This document shows positions 7,255 through 15,441 of a DNA stretch of 35,105 nucleotides, in pieces (positions within the stretch are counted from its first letter, which is position 1; the number at the start of each line of letters is the position of its first letter). A model generated the notes under the pieces. It saw only the letters and a program-made list of their open reading frames with translations, had not been told where the DNA came from and searched no databases. The position numbers were made by a program, and so were the translations under genes. Source of the stretch: Helicobacter cetorum (GTDB lineage Bacteria > Campylobacterota > Campylobacteria > Campylobacterales > UBA6016). The stretch is from positions 81,214 to 116,318 of the forward strand of contig DZAX01000003.1 in the NCBI GenBank assembly GCA_022729705.1, given 5' to 3'.

Positions 7255-8811
7255 ATGACAAGCACACAGCAACGAGCCGAACTACAAAACCAAATTTGGA
7301 AAATTGCAAATGAAGTAAGAGGGAGCGTTGATGGATGGGATTTTAAACAATATGTATTAGGTACTCTGTTTTATAGATTTATTAGCGAAAACTTTGCCGC
7401 TTATATCGAGGGCGGGGATGAGAGTGTTAATTATGCAACTTTGCCTGACAATGTCATTACTCTTGATATTAAAGATGATGCTACCAAAACCAAAGGTTAC
7501 TTTATCTATCCCGGCCAATTATTTGTAAATATAGCCAAAAATGCCAATGAAAACCCAAATTTAAATACAGATTTAAGCGCTGCATTTTCGGCTATTGAAG
7601 CTAGCGCTAATGGCTACCCATCAGAATCAGACATTAAAGGACTTTTTGCGGATTTTGACACTACGAGCAATAGATTAGGAAACACGGTAAAAGATAAAAA
7701 CTCTCGATTAGGTGCAGTTTTAAAAGGTGTGGCTGGACTTAATTTTGGAAAGTTTGAAGACAATCACATAGACCTTTTTGGTGATGCTTATGAGTTTCTT
7801 ATCTCAAACTATGCGGCAAATGCAGGTAAATCCGGCGGAGAGTTTTTCACCCCTCAAAGTGTTTCAAAGCTCATTGCACAACTTGCGATATTGGGGCAAG
7901 AGAAAGTCAATAAGATTTATGACCCTGCGGCCGGTTCTGGTTCACTTTTGCTTCAAACAAAAAAACATTTTGATGCTCATATCATAGAAGACGGATTCTT
8001 TGGGCAAGAGATAAATCACACTACTTACAACCTTGCTCGCATGAATATGTTTTTGCATAATATCAACTATGATAAATTTAACATTGCGCTTGGTAATACT
8101 CTAATAGCCCCACATTTTGGAGATGATAAACCATTTGATGCGATAGTCTCTAATCCTCCATATTCTGTAAACTGGATAGGTAGTGATGACCCTACACTTA
8201 TCAATGATGATAGATTTGCCCCTGCGGGAGTACTAGCACCCAAATCCAAAGCAGATTTTGCTTTTGTATTGCATTGTCTTAGTTATCTATCTCCAAAAGG
8301 AAGAGCGGCGATAGTTTGCTTTCCTGGTATTTTCTATCGTGGCGGAGCGGAACAAAAAATAAGAAAATATCTAGTAGATGGCAACTATGTAGAGAGTGTT
8401 ATCTCCCTTGCTCCAAATCTATTTTTTGGCACATCAATAGCGGTTAATATCTTGGTGCTTTCAAAACATAAAACAGACAACAAAACACAGTTTATCGATG
8501 CAAGTGAACTTTATAAAAAACAGACCAATAACAATATCTTAACTTATGAGGGCGAGAACAATCATATAGAGCGTATTATGAAAGTGTTTGATGTTAAAGA
8601 GAATATTGCCCATTTTGCTAAGTGTGTGGACAATGAGACAATAGCCGAAAATGACTATAACCTCTCCGTTAGCTCGTATGTAGAAGCCAAAGAGACAAGG
8701 GAAATGGTGGATATAAATAGATTAAATGCCGAACTTAAAACTACAGTTGCGAAGATAGAGACTCTTAGAAGTGAAATAGATAAAATTGTTGAGAGTATTG
8801 AAAATGAGTAA
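7255..8811 (+). CDS. hsdM: Type I restriction-modification DNA methyltransferase HsdM
   Basis: This is the modification subunit; with HsdS it methylates adenine at N6 using S-adenosylmethionine. The protein has 518 residues: an N-terminal helical domain ([19 protein letters not shown], about 5-23), SAM-binding motif I ([10 protein letters not shown], from residue 223) and catalytic motif IV NPPY (300-303). A C-terminal coiled region (about 480-518) matches HsdM of the type IC family. The ATG has AGAGGA 8 nt upstream. All motifs are intact. Its stop overlaps the start of a repeat-encoded frame (ATG 8804). Confidence 0.96.
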
Positions 8812-9109
8812 TGAACGGCTAAAAAACGATGGTTCTATTTTTGTCGTCATTGCGGGCTTTTTCTTTCCCGTCATTGCAGGCTTGACCTTTCCCGTCATTG
8901 CGGGCTTGACCTTTTCCGTCATTGCGGGCTTGACCTTTTCCGTCATTGCGGGCTTGACCCGCAATCTCTCCCATGTCATGAGATTCCGCATCAAGTGCGG
9001 AATGACAAACCTCACCTACGGAATGACAAACGGTGTCATTGCGGGCTTGACCTTTTCCGTCATTGCGGGCTTGACCCGCAATCTTTATCCGCAAAGAATA
9101 CACAGATGA
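8804..9109 (+). CDS. Possible repeat-encoded protein between hsdM and the GIY-YIG gene
   Basis: The 101-codon frame starts at an ATG overlapping the hsdM stop and begins [18 protein letters not shown]. It runs through the whole repeat array as repeated SVIAGLTF units, and its TGA overlaps the ATG of the next gene (ATGA). hsdS begins with the same MSN. Either this is the remnant of a gene start (possibly an hsdS-like gene) overrun by repeats, or it is a translated spacer that couples the two genes. The repetitive composition makes a folded function unlikely, and I hold it only as a possible coding region. Confidence 0.25.
8845..9085. repeat. Palindrome-derived repeat array 1 (24-bp period)
   Basis: Units beginning CGTCATTGCGGGCTTGACC recur exactly every 24 bp at 8845, 8869, 8893, 8917 and 8941, and again at 9034-9035 and 9058-9059. 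Complete palindromes ATTGCGGG-CTTGA-CCCGCAAT and ATTCCGCA-TCAAG-TGCGGAAT are included. The composite core (two palindromes joined by a CTCCCATGTCATGAG-type spacer) is the reverse complement of the core in arrays 2 and 3. No unique spacers are present, so it is not a CRISPR. Confidence 0.92.
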
Positions 9110-9726
9110 AAGAAACAGCATATATTTACTTGATGAGCAATCAACATAATACTGTTTTGTACATTGGCGTAACCAACGATTTAACTCGCAGAATTGCCGA
9201 ACATAAAGCAAAGATAAACAAAGGATTTACAGCCAAGTACAATGTGAATAAATTGGTCTATTTTGAGACAACCTCGTCTATCTATGATGCGATAAGCAGA
9301 GAAAAGCAACTTAAAAACTGGAAGCGTGACTGGAAAAATGCCTTGATAAACAAAGACAACCCAAGCTGGGACGATTTGTCAAGCTCTATTGGCGTTGATA
9401 ATGAGATGATTGAAACAGTTCGAAAATACTATCAGGAGATTGCGGGTCAAGCCCGCAATGACAAAAGAAGTCAAGCCCGCAATGACAAACAAGAAAAAGC
9501 CCGCAATGACACCGTTTGTCATTCTGAACTTGAGGTTTGTCATTCTGAACTTGAGGTTTGTCATTCTGAACTTGAGGTTTGTCATTCCGCACTTGAGGTT
9601 TGTCATTCTGAACTTGATTCAGAATCTCACGACATGGGAGAGATTGCGGGTCAAGCCCGCAATGACGAAAGAAGTCAAGCCCGCAATGACGGAAAAGAAA
9701 AAGCCCGCAATGACGGAGGTGAATAA
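9106..9726 (+). CDS. GIY-YIG nuclease-family protein with repeat-encoded tail
   Basis: The first about 95 residues match the small URI/YhbQ-type GIY-YIG group: TAYIYLMSNQHNTVLYIGVTN, then RRIAEHK, GFTAKYNVNKLVYFE, and AISREKQLKNWKR before PSWDDL. Family members normally end here. This one continues for about 95 more residues encoded by repeat array 2, giving repeated QARND, CHSELEV and SESHDMGE units, up to TAA 9724-9726. The ATG 9106 is chosen because it begins the domain and overlaps the preceding stop. The stop overlaps the fic start (TAATG), so the tail also couples translation to fic. The role in the hsd operon is unknown; the domain could be a nuclease. It is not a homing-type protein with a DNA-binding domain. 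Confidence 0.8.
   Translation: MKETAYIYLMSNQHNTVLYIGVTNDLTRRIAEHKAKINKGFTAKYNVNKLVYFETTSSIYDAISREKQLKNWKRDWKNALINKDNPSWDDLSSSIGVDNEMIETVRKYYQEIAGQARNDKRSQARNDKQEKARNDTVCHSELEVCHSELEVCHSELEVCHSALEVCHSELDSESHDMGEIAGQARNDERSQARNDGKEKARNDGGE
9436..9714. repeat. Palindrome-derived repeat array 2 (21- and 24-bp periods)
   Basis: A block of GCCCGCAATGAC-type units is followed by five 21-bp units starting GTCATT at 9518, 9539, 9560, 9581 and 9602. The last is a complete palindrome ATTCTGAA-CTTGA-TTCAGAAT. After it come the spacer CTCACGACATGGGAG and another set of GCGGG-type units. It lies inside the GIY-YIG reading frame, and all periods are multiples of three. It shares orientation and core with array 3. 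Confidence 0.92.
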
Positions 9727-10331
9727 TGATTTTGGATAATAAACTAGGTATAACCAACCAAATAGAACTTGCCCGTGCAGAAGAGAAAATCAGTAAACAA
9801 AAAGCAAAACAACTTTTTGACTCTAGGGATATAGACAAAGCGGAGATTGGGACATTTGCGGGGCTTGGCTTTATCCATGATTATCTTTTTTTGGATATTT
9901 ATCCTTTTGCAGGAAAAATCAGAACAGTTAATATCTCAAAAGATGATTTTCGTTTTGCTCCGCTAATGTATCTTGAAGCTTCGCTAAAACATATTGACAC
10001 CATGCCTCACAGTAATTTTGATGAGATAATCGAAAAATATGTAGAGATGAATATCGCCCACCCATTTCGTGAGGGCAACGGAAGAGCTACGAGAATATGG
10101 CTTGATTTGATACTCAAAAAAGAGATTAAGCAAGTCATCGATTGGAACAAAGTGGACAAAGATGAGTATCTATCATGCATGAAAAGAAGTGTAGTAAAAG
10201 ATATAGAAATCAAACACTTATTTCGCTCAGCCCTTACAGAACAGATAAACGACCGTGCTTTGTTTATGAAAGGTATTGATGTGAGTTACTACTATGAGGG
10301 TTATAGTGAATTTAAGACAGAGGAGCTATAG
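9726..10331 (+). CDS. fic: Fic-domain AMP-transferase, class III-like
   Basis: Fic enzymes usually transfer AMP from ATP to a hydroxyl on a target protein. The full catalytic motif HPFREGNGRATR is present (H112 to R123), so the site looks active. The upstream beta-hairpin flap region (KIRTVNISKDDFRF, about 64-77) is also present. Near the C-terminus, S187-YYY-E191-G192 fits the (S/T)xxxE(G/N) inhibitory-helix motif, and a C-terminal position is that of class III Fic proteins such as NmFic, which are similar in length (about 190-200). It would therefore be autoinhibited without a separate antitoxin. The ATG overlaps the preceding TAA, and a repeat array separates it from hsdS. The target is unknown. 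Confidence 0.9.
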   Translation: MILDNKLGITNQIELARAEEKISKQKAKQLFDSRDIDKAEIGTFAGLGFIHDYLFLDIYPFAGKIRTVNISKDDFRFAPLMYLEASLKHIDTMPHSNFDEIIEKYVEMNIAHPFREGNGRATRIWLDLILKKEIKQVIDWNKVDKDEYLSCMKRSVVKDIEIKHLFRSALTEQINDRALFMKGIDVSYYYEGYSEFKTEEL

Positions 10332-10335
10332 CCAA

Positions 10336-10625
10336 ATGACACCGTTTGTCGTTTTGCAAGCGAGGTTTGTCATTCTGAGCCCGAGGTTTGTCATTTTGCA
10401 AGCGAGGTTTGTCATTCTGAACCCGAGGTTTGTCATTTCGCACTTGAGGTTTGTCATTCCGCACTTGAGGTTTGTCATTTCGCACTTGAGGTTTGTCATT
10501 CCGCACTTGAGGTTTGTCATTTCGCACTTGAGGTTTGTCATTCCGCACTTGATGCGGAATCTCACGACATGGGAGAGATTGCGGGTCAAGCCCGCAATGA
10601 CGGAAAAGGTCAAGCCCGCAATGAC
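10336..10625. repeat. Palindrome-derived repeat array 3 (21-bp period, ten units)
   Basis: Ten 21-bp units start GTC at 10348 and every 21 bp to 10537. Units 5-10 alternate GTCATTTCGCAC and GTCATTCCGCAC, a 42-bp higher-order repeat amplified three times. The last unit is a complete palindrome ATTCCGCA-CTTGA-TGCGGAAT, followed by the CTCACGACATGGGAG spacer and GCGGG-type units. A plus-strand frame (from ATG 10336) stays open across the whole array and ends at 10647, inside the start of hsdS. Confidence 0.93.
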
Positions 10626-10639
10626 GAAAGGTGAAACAA

Positions 10640-11770
10640 ATGAGTAATATAAAAGAACTGCTTGAGGGCGTAGAGGTGGAGTGGAAGAGTTTGGGGGAGG
10701 TTGCGAATATAACAATAGGCGAATTTGTACATCAGGATAAACAAAATCCATCTGCAAGATATCCTGTCTATAATGGCGGAATAAAGCCAACAGGTTATTA
10801 CGAAGAATATAATAATAAGGGCAATAAAGTAATTGTAAGTGCAAGAGGTGCGAATGCAGGATTTGTTAATAAAATGCTAGAGCCATATTGGGCAGGGAAT
10901 AGTTGCTATTCGATTAGTGCAAAAGATGAAATTCAATTAAATTGGGAATTTGTTTTCTATCTTTTAAAATCAAATGAAAATAAAATGATTAGCAGTCAAC
11001 AAGGAGGAGGAATTCCCGCTATTTCAAAGAAGCAAATGGAATCTTTTCAAATCCCAATCCCCCCTCTCCATATCCAAAGTGAAATTGTCCGAATTTTGGA
11101 CAATTTCACAGAGCTTACAGCAGAGCTTACAGCAGAGCTTCATGCGAGAAAAAAACAGTATCAGTTTTACAGAGATAAATTATTGTCGTTTGAAGATGGG
11201 GAAGTTGAGTGGAAGAGTTTGGGGAAAGTTGTAGTTAGAAGCAAAGGCACACCAATAACGGCTACACAAATGAAAATCCTTGATAAGCCAAATGCACCTG
11301 TAAAAATTTTTGCAGGTGGCAAAACTATTGCATATTTTGATTATGATGATTTGCCACAAAAAGATATAAATACTTTTCCATCCATCATTGTAAAATCGCG
11401 TGGAGTAATAGAATTTGAATATTATGATAAACCTTTCAGTCATAAAAATGAAATGTGGTCTTATCATAGTGAACACAATGAAATAAATATTAAATTTATT
11501 TACTACTTTCTTAAAACCCAAGAAGAGCAATTGCGAAATAAAGCAACAAGCATGGGAGCTTTTCCTCAAATTGCAATTTCAGATACAGAAAAACTCCAAA
11601 TCCCCATCCCCCCACTGGCACAACAAGAAAAAATCGTCTCTATCCTCGATAAATTCGACACCCTAACAAACTCAATAAGCGAGGGTTTACCTCGTGAGAT
11701 AGCACTCCGACAACAGCAATATGAGTATTACAGAGATTTACTCTTGAGCTTTCCAAAGGATGTTTTATGA
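10640..11770 (+). CDS. hsdS: Type I restriction specificity subunit HsdS (type IC-like)
   Basis: This subunit recognises the two halves of the target sequence. The ATG at 10640 is preferred over GTG 10631 because AAAGGTG lies about 7 nt upstream. There are two target-recognition domains (about 15-150 and 195-335), each opened by nearly the same peptide (EVEWKSLG) from nearly the same DNA (10673 and 11202 regions), and each closed by an IPIPPL motif. The central spacer contains TEL-TAEL-TAEL encoded by a 12-bp tandem repeat, as in EcoR124. The C-terminus (LDKFDTLTNSISEGLPREI, then RQQQYEYYRDLLLSF) is also EcoR124-like. It overlaps the next gene by 4 bp (ATGA). Confidence 0.96.
   Translation: MSNIKELLEGVEVEWKSLGEVANITIGEFVHQDKQNPSARYPVYNGGIKPTGYYEEYNNKGNKVIVSARGANAGFVNKMLEPYWAGNSCYSISAKDEIQLNWEFVFYLLKSNENKMISSQQGGGIPAISKKQMESFQIPIPPLHIQSEIVRILDNFTELTAELTAELHARKKQYQFYRDKLLSFEDGEVEWKSLGKVVVRSKGTPITATQMKILDKPNAPVKIFAGGKTIAYFDYDDLPQKDINTFPSIIVKSRGVIEFEYYDKPFSHKNEMWSYHSEHNEINIKFIYYFLKTQEEQLRNKATSMGAFPQIAISDTEKLQIPIPPLAQQEKIVSILDKFDTLTNSISEGLPREIALRQQQYEYYRDLLLSFPKDVL
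11111..11140 (+). repeat. 12-bp tandem repeat in the hsdS spacer (TAEL)
   Basis: GAGCTTACAGCA occurs twice, followed by a third GAGCTT, and encodes E-L-T-A repeats in the central helix region. In the EcoR124 family a change in the number of TAEL repeats changes the length of the nonspecific gap in the recognised DNA sequence. That this copy number varies in this organism is inferred. Confidence 0.85.
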
Positions 11771-12330
11771 TAGACAAAATTAATCAAACAAAACAACTCA
11801 TAAGTGAGATAAATAGGTTGCATTGCACATTTTCAAATGATTATTTTGAGATGAGCAAAATCGATAAGATAAATCTATCAAAAACAATCCAGCATATCCC
11901 TGTGTCGCATATCTACACCTATCGCCTTACTTTGCATGAGAGTATTAACGATTATTTGATGGGGGCGGATATTGAGATAAAGTATTTTTATCGTGTTAAA
12001 ACACGCGAGAGTATCGATGACAAGATTGGGCGATTTTCAAGCAGAGAAGACCAATATCCTGTCAACAACTGGCTTAATGATATTTTTGGTGCTCGTATCG
12101 TTTTAACCTCAAGTGAGATAGAAACTATGATGAATTTGCTTGATGAATGGCAAGAGGAATTGAGTCTAAAAAATTGGTATTTTCGCCAAAAAGAGGGCTA
12201 CAGAGGAGTTCATATCTATTTCAAAAATAAGAGTAATTTTTATTTTCCGTGGGAGTTGCAAGTTTGGGATTTAGATGATGTCCAAAACAATATCAAAAAT
12301 CATCAGAAGTTTAAACGAAACTTTATATAA
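11767..12330 (+). CDS. RelA/SpoT-like nucleotidyltransferase inside the hsd operon
   Basis: The 187-residue protein has a recognisable RelA_SpoT synthetase-type core: YRVKTRESIDDKI (75-87), NDIFGARIVL (104-113, with the Asp and Arg of the family's D-x-x-G-x-R pattern), GYRGVHIYF (144-152, in place of Y-x-S-x-H) and ELQVWD (163-168, in place of E-x-Q-I-R-T). The acidic residues expected to hold magnesium are present, so activity is plausible. There is no hydrolase (HD), TGS or ACT domain, so it is a single-domain protein like small alarmone synthetases and toxSAS toxins. It overlaps hsdS by 4 bp and lies 9 bp before hsdR, firmly within the operon. It could make an alarmone or modify RNA; a degenerate member is also possible. 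Confidence 0.72.
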   Translation: MIDKINQTKQLISEINRLHCTFSNDYFEMSKIDKINLSKTIQHIPVSHIYTYRLTLHESINDYLMGADIEIKYFYRVKTRESIDDKIGRFSSREDQYPVNNWLNDIFGARIVLTSSEIETMMNLLDEWQEELSLKNWYFRQKEGYRGVHIYFKNKSNFYFPWELQVWDLDDVQNNIKNHQKFKRNFI

Positions 12331-12339
12331 AGAAAAACA

Positions 12340-15300
12340 ATGAGTCTTGAAACCAAACCAATAGCCGAGCTAAACAATTTTATCGTTTTGGATAAATACA
12401 CAAAGATTGAACAAGAGGGTAGTTCCTATCAGAGTGAAGCTGATTTGGAAAATGAACTAATCAAAGATTTACAAAATCAAGGTTATGAGTTTTTAAATGA
12501 TTTAAATAGCCCTGAAGCACTATTGGCAAATGTGAGGGTGCAAATCGGAGAACTCAATCGTGTAGAGTTTGGTGATGGCGAATGGAGTCGTTTTGCAGAG
12601 GAGTATCTAGACAAGCCAAGTGATAACATCATCGAAAAAACTCGTAAAATCCATGATGACTATATCTATGATTTTGTGTTTGATGATGGGCGTATCAAAA
12701 ATATCTATCTCCTTGATAAAAAAAATATCAGCAGAAATAAAGTGCAAGTCATTTCACAATTTGAACAAAAAGGGACACAGCTAAATCGTTATGATGTGAC
12801 TATTTTGGTCAATGGTTTGCCACTGGTGCAGATTGAACTCAAAAAAAGAGGGGTTGCGATAAGGGAAGCCTTTAACCAGATGCACCGATACTCAAAAGAG
12901 AGTTTTAATAGTGAGAACTCTCTCTATAAATATTTGCAGATTTTTATCATATCAAACGGAACCGATAGCAGATACTTTGCAAACACTACCAAAAGAGATA
13001 AAAATAGTTTTGATTTTACGATGAACTGGGCTAAGTCTGATAATACACTTATCAAAGACCTCAAAGATTTCACGGCTACATTTTTACAAAAAAAGACTCT
13101 GCTTGATGTGCTTATTTGCTACAGTGTTTTTGATGTGAGCGATACTTTGCTCATTATGCGACCCTATCAGATAGCCGCAACTGAGCGACTTATTTGGAAA
13201 ATAAGAAGTTCATATCAGGCAAAAAATTGGAGTAGCTTGGAGGGTGGAGGATATATCTGGCACACGACAGGAAGCGGTAAAACGCTTACAAGCTTTAAAG
13301 CGGCAAGGTTGGCGACGGAACTTGATTTTATCGACAAAGTGTTTTTTGTGGTGGATAGAAAAGACCTTGATTATCAGACTATGAAAGAGTATCAGAGATT
13401 TTCACCAGGTAGTGTCAACGGAAGTGATAGCACGGCAGGACTTAAGAAAAATATAGAAAAAGATGATAACAAAATCATCGTTACGACTATCCAAAAGCTC
13501 AACAACTTGATGAAAAGAGAAAATGACTTGGCGATTTACTCAAAGCAAGTGGTTTTTATCTTTGATGAAGCGCATCGTAGCCAATTTGGAGAAGCCCAAA
13601 AGAATTTGGCTAAAAAATTTAAAAAATATTATCAATTTGGTTTTACGGGGACTCCAATTTTTCCTGAGAATGCTTTGGGCGCTGAAACGACTGCGGGTGT
13701 ATTTGGTACAGAGTTGCACTCGTATGTGATTACCGATGCAATTCGTGATGAAAAAGTATTGAAGTTTAAAGTAGATTATAATGATGTTCGACCACGGTTT
13801 AAAGAGTGCGAGAGCGAAATCGATGAAAAAAAACTGAGTAGCCTTGAGAACAAACAAGCATTGCTGCACCCTGTAAGGATAAATGAGATTGCTGGGTATA
13901 TTTTAAACAACTTCAATCAAAAAACTCACCGTCTGCAAGTGGGGGCGAAGGGCTTTAATGCAATGTTTGCAGTAAGTAGCGTGGATGCAGCAAAGCTTTA
14001 TTATGAAGCGTTTAAGAACTTGCAAAAAGATAAAGAGAGACCACTTAGAATCGCTACTATTTTTTCATTTGCCGCCAATGAGACACAAGATGCCATCGGA
14101 GATATTGAAGATGAAACATTTGAACCAACGGCGATGGATACTAGCGCCAAAGAGTTTTTAAGCGCCGCTATTGGTGATTATAATGCGATGTTTAAAACTT
14201 CGTATGGAGTTAGTGCGCAAGAGTTTGCAAACTATTATAAAGACCTTGCAAAAAGAGTAAAAAACAGAGAAGTTGATTTACTTATTGTCGTGGGTATGTT
14301 TTTAACCGGTTTTGATGCACCGACTTTAAATACTTTGTTTGTAGATAAAAATCTAAGATACCATGGTTTGATACAAGCATATTCACGAACCAATAGAATC
14401 TATGATACAACTAAAACATTTGGAAATATTGTAACTTTTAGAGATCTTGAACTTGCAACAATTGATGCAATAGCTTTATTTGGAGATAAAAATACTAAAA
14501 ATGTAGTTTTGGAAAAAAGCTATACCGAATATATGCAAGGCTTTACGGATATAGTCTCAGGCGAAGCTAGAAGAGGTTATTTGGATATAGTTGAAGAACT
14601 TGAACAAAAATTCCCAAATCCTGAAACTATAGAAAAAGAGAAAGATAAAAAAGAGTTTGCAAAATTGTTTGGTGAGTACTTAAAAGCTGAAAATATACTG
14701 CAAAATTATGATGAGTTTGCAGGATTAAAAGCGCTACAAAATTTGGATGTGAGTGATGCAAGAGCCGTAGAAGAATTTAAAGCAAAGCATTATTTGAGCG
14801 ATGAAGATTTGAGCAAAATGCAAGAGATTAAAATACCATCAGAGCGAATCATTCAAGATTACAAATCAACATATAATGATATTAGAGAGTGGATTAGAAC
14901 GAGGAAAATACCCGAAGAGGAGGCAGAATCTACTATTGATTGGAATGATATAGTTTTTGAAATTGATTTGCTCAAATCACAAGAGATCAATCTTGATTAT
15001 ATTTTAGAATTGATTTTTGAAAAAAATAAAAAAGTTAAAGATAAAACAAAATTAGTTGAAGAAGTTAGAAGAGTAATTAGGGCTAGTTTGGGCAATAGGG
15101 CGAAAGAGGGCTTGATTGTTGATTTTATCAATCAAACAAATTTGGATGAGATTTTAGATAAGGCAAGTATTATTGATGAGTTTTTTAAATTTGCACAAGC
15201 GGAACAACAAAAAGAGGCAAATGAGTTAATTGGCGATGAAAACTTAAATGAAGAAGCTGCAAAAAGATATATTGTTACTTCTTTAAAACGAGAGTATACA

Positions 15301-15441
15301 AGTGAAAACGGTACAGAACTAAATGCTATTTTGCCAAAGATGAGTCCACTCAATCCGCAATATTTAACAAAAAAACAGAGCGTTTTTCAAAAAATTGCTG
15401 CGTTTGTTGAGAAGTTTAAAGGGGTTGGCGGGAATGTTTAA
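12340..15441 (+). CDS. hsdR: Type I restriction endonuclease/translocase HsdR
   Basis: This is the ATP-driven DNA translocase and nuclease subunit (1033 residues). The N-terminal nuclease domain shows [10 protein letters not shown] with E166 and K168 of the PD-(D/E)xK site and a following MHRY. The SF2 helicase core has Walker A HTTGSGKT (308-315), motif II DEAH (409-412), motif III FTGTP, and motifs V/VI near [21 protein letters not shown] and [10 protein letters not shown]. The C-terminal helical region (about 780-1033) is that of type IC HsdR. It looks full length and intact. It is last in the operon and follows the RelA-like gene closely. Confidence 0.97.

Follow-up and report, generated by a model that had tools for sequence, protein, structure and literature searches.

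What does a RelA/SpoT homolog do inside a type I restriction-modification (R-M) operon? The question arises from a 35,105-nucleotide stretch of Helicobacter cetorum DNA (assembly GCA_022729705.1, contig DZAX01000003.1, positions 81,214 to 116,318; referred to here as the window, with coordinates counted from its first letter). Its open reading frames (ORFs) and their Pfam matches place five genes on the plus strand in the order hsdM, fic, hsdS, a relA-like gene (hereafter RSH, for RelA/SpoT homolog), and hsdR. Across public genomes, we found that RSH recurs upstream of type IC hsdR and that prrC holds its position in the operons most closely related to that of the window. The reading that we favor, and to which we would give slightly less than an even chance, is that RSH is an alternative PrrC-type effector, i.e., a tRNA-directed, FaRel2-like enzyme that sits in the place of PrrC and is restrained by the type IC complex. 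This reading builds on the fold of the protein, its conserved catalytic set, its operon position, its recurrence in hsd loci, and the exchange of PrrC and RSH at one slot.

RSH is embedded in a type IC hsd operon

The operon comprises the following genes.

hsdM, 7255 to 8811, plus strand: type I methyltransferase subunit, 518 amino acids (aa) (Pfam N6_Mtase, 1.5e-116; NCBIfam hsdM)
fic, 9726 to 10331, plus strand: NmFic-type protein adenylyltransferase, a second accessory gene (PF02661, 1.7e-11; NF046029, 1e-90; PADLOC PDC-S04)
hsdS, 10631 to 11770, plus strand: specificity subunit (PF01420, 5.1e-50), with two TAEL repeats at residues 163 to 170
RSH, 11767 to 12330, plus strand: small synthetase of predicted RelA/SpoT fold, 187 aa, ATG start, FaRel2-like, in the PrrC slot
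hsdR, 12340 to 15441, plus strand: EcoR124I-like (type IC) restriction/translocase subunit, 1033 aa (EcoR124_C, 6.5e-71; HSDR_N, 2e-47)

The products of hsdM, fic, hsdS, and hsdR all score well above their Pfam cutoffs; RSH is the exception. HsdR of EcoR124I is likewise 1,033 aa long (PMC12707154), and TAEL repeats are a described trait of type IC HsdS (PMC3874165). Judging from the HsdR type, the TAEL repeats, and the hsdM-hsdS-hsdR order, the window locus is a complete hsd locus of the type IC (EcoR124I-like) kind with predicted R-M activity.

A first-pass annotation made from the letters of the window had placed a RelA/SpoT-like nucleotidyltransferase within this operon, and its description of the gene was confirmed from the sequence: the 187-aa ORF carries the motifs NDIFGARIVL, GYRGVHIYF, and ELQVWD, its start overlaps the hsdS stop (11770) by 4 bp (ATGA), and 9 bp separate it from hsdR. 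The overlap suggests that RSH may be cotranslated with hsdS. The overlap and the gap together leave no room for an antitoxin gene beside RSH in the window, and a classical toxin-antitoxin pair was rejected because the window holds no partner gene.

The predicted fold of RSH is closest to FaRel2

By sequence, membership of RSH in the RelA/SpoT family is real, yet weak. Against PF04607, the window protein scored 26.4 bits (E = 8.7e-6), slightly below the gathering score of 27. When the window's own genome was searched with PF04607, only a different gene came up (a 718-aa frame). Both relatives that were scanned exceeded the cutoff (31.6 bits for L103, 29.7 bits for L048). The best profile for RSH was the phage protein family phrog_4012 (E = 1.7e-62), which marks the two as the same family; neither a function nor an R-M link is given for phrog_4012.

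To place the protein by structure, we modeled RSH with AlphaFold2 from an alignment of 42 sequences (the window plus 41 homologs out of the 53 loci described below), obtaining a mean pLDDT of 85.8 and a pTM of 0.82. The model adopts a RelA/SpoT synthetase fold, with no extra domain beyond it in the predicted structure. Foldseek returned FaRel2 as the top match (1.4e-9), and a structural aligner gave a Z score of 13.8 for FaRel2 (root mean square deviation, 3.1; 159 residues), with lower scores for RelQ/SAS1 (7.8), SAS2 (6.8), and CapRel (6.3); this comparison covered the toxin families listed in structure tables. FaRel2 aligns with model residues 2 to 181, whereas RelQ, RelP, and their relatives align only from residues 43 to 47 onward. 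The model thus points to a tRNA-modifying toxic small alarmone synthetase (toxSAS), FaRel2, rather than to an alarmone synthetase as the nearest fold.

The residues of the active site are consistent with this placement. In FaRel2, the ATP-site and catalytic residues are R64, K66, S70, K74, R77, R95, Y128 of the G-loop, and E145 (PMC11782079), and sequence alignments give R76, K78, S82, K86, R89, R110, Y145, and E163 as their counterparts in RSH. The synthetase catalytic set (RxK, D, G-loop YR.H, and ExQ) is therefore present. Among 50 aligned sequences, R76, K78, D105, R110, H149, E163, and Q165 are invariant; S82, K86, and R89 are found in 49 and Y145 in 47. The acidic catalytic residues, D105 and E163, are accordingly retained across homologs, and the RelA/SpoT identity that the first-pass annotation had claimed is upheld by the FaRel2-like fold, the phrog_4012 match, and these residues, the window's PF04607 score being the part that fell short. 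The G-loop reads EGYRGVH in RSH and DGFRGIH in FaRel2, the latter in the solved Y128F variant; the YwaC motif PKPNGYRSLH is absent from RSH. FaRel2 uses the basic residues K28 and R29 for the tRNA acceptor stem. The possible counterparts in RSH, K34 (49 of 50 sequences) and K/R39 (all 50), are in the loop ahead of helix 46-65. With 53 homologous loci in public genomes and invariant catalytic positions among the aligned sequences, RSH is not a chance ORF.

FaRel2 is the toxic synthetase of a toxin-antitoxin pair and pyrophosphorylates the 3′-CCA ends of tRNA (PMC11782079, PMC11559606); a small alarmone hydrolase is reported to reverse this modification (PMC11559606). RSH resembles it (PDB 8pu1, 8pu3, and 8pu4) in fold over nearly the full length, in ATP-site residues, and in G-loop type. 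It differs in having no adjoining antitoxin gene, in lacking the C-terminal helices through which FaRel2 engages its antitoxin, and in overall sequence (about 20% identity). CapRel-SJ46, a fused toxSAS, is like FaRel2 a tRNA-pyrophosphorylating enzyme of RelA/SpoT fold, and it acts against phages (PMC9712102). CapRel-SJ46 carries its own inhibitory sensing domain, for which the 187-aa RSH has no room, and its Z score is just 6.3.

RSH recurs in type IC loci and exchanges with PrrC

To determine how widely this arrangement occurs, we scanned public genomes and recovered 53 homologous RSH loci, 43 of them at 72 to 79% identity, from Proteobacteria, Cyanobacteria, a Bacteroidia bin, and Firmicutes. 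At 21 of the 53, a type IC hsdR (HsdR identity, 74 to 81%) is present in cis downstream of RSH, which rules out an arrangement unique to the window's genome and bears out the tie to restriction operons drawn in the first-pass annotation. Upstream of RSH, hsdS was detected in 20 of these 21 loci, several with other genes in between. At L050, hsdM and hsdS are present and the contig ends inside RSH; L048 is a diverged hsd locus with a different gene order. Within the window's phylum, only the window's own genome of 397 carries RSH. The sole other match there (E = 6e-4; 34% across 80 residues in a frame of 711 aa) is probably a long Rel. No RSH relative was found in a scan of a viral contig collection, and a distant blastn search of Escherichia coli genomes gave no match. 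Relatives did appear in phage records (26) and in records of a plasmid collection (15); all but one of the 41 are below 60% identity. In a Streptococcus agalactiae prophage (L103, 3208 to 4564), a 59% identical RSH directly follows the CI repressor gene and is followed by one small gene and then the integrase gene; the 6 kb examined gave no match to hsd genes. A site next to the CI repressor near the integrase is typical of lysogen-expressed genes.

The nearest relatives of the window's operon carry a different gene in this position. In the three nearest by HsdR (85 to 88% identity), PrrC lies between hsdS and hsdR, and the four loci of the window's phylum closest by HsdR identity (80 to 88%; L080 to L083) have PrrC where the window has RSH. 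Alignment of L130 to L132 with the window matched the hsdS ends and hsdR starts on either side of the exchanged gene, and the window HsdM is 91% and 93% identical to HsdM of the PrrC-bearing loci L130 and L131. RSH itself is absent from the closest hsd relatives of the window, a result that by the standard of the first-pass annotation would count against its reading, but PrrC fills the place of the gene there.

To quantify this alternation, we took a census of 46 distinct HsdR loci (E ≤ 1e-250), comprising 14 from Acinetobacter, 8 new loci, and 24 including the window. Forty loci with upstream DNA were scored along with the window; L100 and L101 (1.5 kb upstream only, with neither gene there) and the cut-off loci L088, L095, and L102 were left unscored. 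Nine of the 41 carried RSH, 21 PrrC, 11 neither, and none both (Fisher P = 4.8e-4, uncorrected for kinship, with 8 of the 9 RSH loci from Acinetobacter). The 14 close HsdR loci of Acinetobacter, found in 13 of 175 genomes, divided into 8 with RSH and 6 with PrrC, again with none carrying both. The PrrC model of PADLOC was matched at 2.3e-129 or better by all seven PrrC proteins scanned. Five of them belong to the census 21, and the remaining 16 were called by tblastn to PADLOC-matched ones. One of the 21 (L125) is broken: only its C-terminal half was matched, split into two segments, and neither hsdM nor hsdS gave a match at that locus. There was no PrrC match within the window. A PrrC gene elsewhere in its genome was set aside because none was found there, in a search run without a positive control genome, where an empty answer by itself shows nothing.

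In a quick HsdR tree, the window nests among mostly PrrC-linked HsdR of its own phylum, in a set of six loci, namely four with PrrC, one with neither gene, and the window (SH-aLRT, 97). The tree has 54 rows; it omits L057 to L063 and L065, which are second copies of Acinetobacter loci already included, as well as L050, L078, L079, L088, L095, L100, L101, and L102. RSH presence requires 8 changes on this tree. For the RSH-only label, a minimum of 5 is forced by well-supported branches, and this label is more clustered than in shuffles. In a 54-row RSH tree, hsd context changes 12 times, 4 of them forced. These counts do not separate gain of RSH from loss; because PrrC surrounds the window's branch, a PrrC-to-RSH exchange on that branch is the simplest reading.

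Observations that weigh against a PrrC-like role

Several observations weigh against the reading of RSH as a PrrC-type effector held by the Hsd complex. The two genes do not always exclude each other: outside the census, PrrC and RSH stand in tandem between hsdS and hsdR at L013 (6721 to 8558) and L026 (6884 to 8558), that is, in 2 of the 22 hsd-linked RSH copies (window included). Besides PrrC and RSH, the slot accommodates RhuM, KilA-N, Bro-N, GIY-YIG, and PDDEXK genes, so that position alone is no proof of function. RhuM, like PrrC, is missing from all nine census RSH loci, which makes the avoidance of PrrC less specific. In addition, RSH lacks the FaRel2 C-terminal helices: the alignment stops at FaRel2 residues 163 to 165 of about 206 aa, and RSH ends at residue 187. 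The hsdS-hsdR slot is a general landing site, and it has been called a potential recombination hotspot for defense systems (PMC12255303). RhuM, KilA-N, Bro-N, and GIY-YIG genes were seen in the slot at L071, L073, L075, L084, L007, L015, and L030. RhuM accompanies PrrC in 6 of the 21 census PrrC loci. Among the 21 hsdR-linked loci of the RSH scan, 6 have RhuM together with RSH, and a seventh has a fragment of it.

A further point concerns copies outside hsd loci. No recognizable intact type IC hsd genes adjoin RSH at 30 of the 53 loci (27 examined as stand-alone plus 3 cut or broken, L052 to L054, with several contigs short), and an HsdR match was missing altogether from 7 of 36 searched genomes, several of them being incomplete bins. 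Three genomes with stand-alone RSH (G399, G409, and G430) have a close HsdR on another contig, and an HsdR-like gene of 25% identity lies near the copy at L039. The ratio of nonsynonymous to synonymous substitution rates (dN/dS) indicates strong purifying selection on the Acinetobacter stand-alone copies (0.03 to 0.11), and most other RSH pairs gave similar values by NG86; saturated (undefined) values were left unused. For L033/L035, stand-alone copies at different sites, a past period within intact hsd loci may account for part of the value, as both copies have an upstream hsdS relic; L043, L045, and L047, near metH, are the cleaner stand-alone case. Given purifying selection on copies outside hsd loci, silencing by Hsd cannot be the sole control of RSH. 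The gene is tolerated, and apparently useful, without an Hsd complex, which a model with Hsd as the only antitoxin does not predict.

Some stand-alone copies nevertheless bear traces of an hsd past. Just upstream of RSH, 7 of the 27 (L012, L019, L020, L025, L027, L033, and L035) retain an HsdS C-terminal relic of 17 to 46 residues, compared with 2 of 187 random control segments; two of the seven rest on short matches of 17 and 19 residues (L020 and L012, respectively). At L032, a RhuM relic adjoins the stand-alone RSH. These relics indicate that some stand-alone copies are leftovers of hsd loci in which RSH outlived the restriction genes. Other stand-alone copies lie between housekeeping genes (topA, metH, M32 peptidase, and dnaJ). 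No widely shared partner emerged from 277 small ORFs around 24 non-hsd copies; the ORFs that were shared were hsdS relics, near-identical neighbors, or neighbors of the Acinetobacter copies. Four Acinetobacter stand-alone copies have a 97-aa cold-shock-domain gene beside them (upstream at L043, L045, and L047 and downstream at L046), either a partner or a mere insertion site.

Alternative explanations

The most serious alternative, which we consider possible though rather unlikely, is that RSH is independent single-gene defense or abortive-infection cargo with its own sensing. It would be free of control by Hsd proteins, and the hsd operons, prophages, and plasmids that carry it would serve for its expression alone. 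The copies among housekeeping genes fit this account, as do purifying selection in most pairs, the copy in the streptococcal prophage, which lies between the genes for the CI repressor and the integrase and has no hsd match nearby, the plasmid copies, the genomes lacking an HsdR match, and the description of the hsdS-hsdR site as a potential hotspot of defense genes (PMC12255303). It sits poorly with Acinetobacter, where every one of the 8 copies found in the 175 genomes at 76% identity or more lies directly upstream of type IC hsdR, with the alternation of slot occupancy between RSH and PrrC, and with the hsdS relics, which speak for descent from hsd loci in 7 of the 27 stand-alone copies.

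RSH might instead be a true alarmone synthetase that, on activation, makes (p)ppGpp or (pp)pApp and slows growth or drains ATP, leaving tRNA unmodified. The fold and donor site are common to RelP, RelQ, and Rel, and acceptor specificity is unreadable from a model. FaRel2, however, is clearly nearer in structure, the N-terminal part included, and the G-loop EGYRGVH is FaRel2-like and without the YwaC-type motif, so we judge alarmone synthesis improbable; a plain RelP/RelQ-type synthetase was rejected on the same structural and G-loop grounds. That RSH is a hitchhiking or decaying gene with no defense role seems to us very improbable. Some copies are indeed broken (L054 is in two pieces, and G501 holds a 57-residue fragment) or overrun the usual end, the relic pair L025/L027 shows weaker constraint (dN/dS of 0.27 at a dS of 0.05), and a single genome of its phylum has the gene. 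Set against this are the invariant catalytic set, strong purifying selection in most pairs, and the repeated appearance of RSH in the same slot across phyla.

Other features of the locus

The region between hsdM and hsdS holds further elements. A GIY-YIG nuclease-domain ORF (8995 to 9726; PF01541, 2.2e-17) lies between hsdM and fic with repeats on its flanks, and tandem-repeat arrays of 21- and 24-bp units (8845 to 8959, 9446 to 9511, 9514 to 9617, 9653 to 9717, and 10344 to 10552) sit among hsdM, the GIY-YIG domain, fic, and hsdS. Several related loci likewise carry an NmFic-type fic between hsdM and hsdS. Across 7255 to 15441, the GC content is 35 to 37% in the hsd genes and 33% in RSH, compared with 41% for the whole window, and the lower value of the hsd genes fits an acquired locus.

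RSH as a candidate client of the Hsd complex

Effectors between hsdS and hsdR are already known, namely PrrC and DarTG2 (PMC12255303), and the first-pass statement that no described hsd system of this design was known does not hold as written, given PrrC in EcoprrI (PMC3874165, PMC2610378) and DarTG2 (PMC12255303) as precedents. PrrC is a latent tRNA-Lys anticodon nuclease that is silenced by EcoprrI and activated when the T4 Stp protein inhibits EcoprrI (PMC2610378, PMC3874165, PMC12707154). RSH shares with PrrC the type IC R-M system, the slot between hsdS and hsdR, and tight gene spacing, and probably also the class of target (tRNA) and the purpose of a fallback when restriction is blocked. 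The proteins are unrelated: PrrC is an ABC-ATPase nuclease that cuts the anticodon loop, whereas RSH is a 187-aa protein of predicted RelA/SpoT fold. PrrC is described in PMC2610378 as always linked to type IC systems, whereas the RSH family also stands alone; the same source describes RloC, a PrrC relative found mostly away from hsd loci and, in one case, beside an hsdR relic.

DarTG acts on DNA. DarTG2, in the RRDM island of E. coli, is a defense toxin at the same type I operon position that differs from RSH in bringing its own antitoxin, DarG (PMC12255303). For a RelA-fold enzyme in the hsdS-hsdR slot, or its exchange with PrrC, we found no description among the listed titles and abstract openings of open-license papers, several of the lists covering only part of the matches, and a prior description elsewhere is possible. 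The passages of PMC9712102 and PMC12707154 that deal with related terms mention no toxSAS or RelA-like gene in an hsd operon.

We read RSH as a putative tRNA-inactivating client of the Hsd complex because it is FaRel2-like, occupies the PrrC slot, overlaps hsdS, and has no antitoxin gene. Under this reading, RSH would be made together with HsdS and HsdR, and the intact HsdM/S/R complex would keep it harmless. A phage anti-restriction protein or DNA damage that disturbs the complex would then free RSH or switch it on, and the active protein would be a small pyrophosphotransferase of the toxSAS kind acting on tRNA. Pyrophosphorylation of the tRNA acceptor (CCA) end is inferred from the structural model, and silencing by the Hsd complex with release by anti-restriction proteins is proposed by analogy with PrrC. 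The first-pass idea that RSH might be a layer that acts if restriction fails is strengthened, again by analogy, by the exchange with PrrC.

A broader proposal, about which we are more doubtful, is that type IC operons have a general guard slot in which tRNA-inactivating effectors (PrrC and RSH) are interchangeable, with the Hsd complex as both antitoxin and sensor. PrrC cuts the anticodon, RSH may block the CCA end, and RSH may thus be a toxSAS without a dedicated antitoxin, run by a restriction machine. Among tRNA toxins coupled to a restriction enzyme, PrrC is the textbook case. That an enzyme unrelated to PrrC, and probably also directed at tRNA, stands in its slot in related loci suggests that the Hsd complex could be a general guard for different effectors, and RSH would be a second fallback weapon of the PrrC kind, with a different chemistry. 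How EcoprrI silences and releases PrrC is an old question, which becomes testable by comparing two unrelated clients of one kind of complex. Phage tRNA-repair enzymes mend the cuts made by PrrC. If the guard-slot proposal is true, an effector swap could defeat such enzymes, and the RSH/PrrC exchange points to a possible bacterial response to phages that repair cut tRNA.

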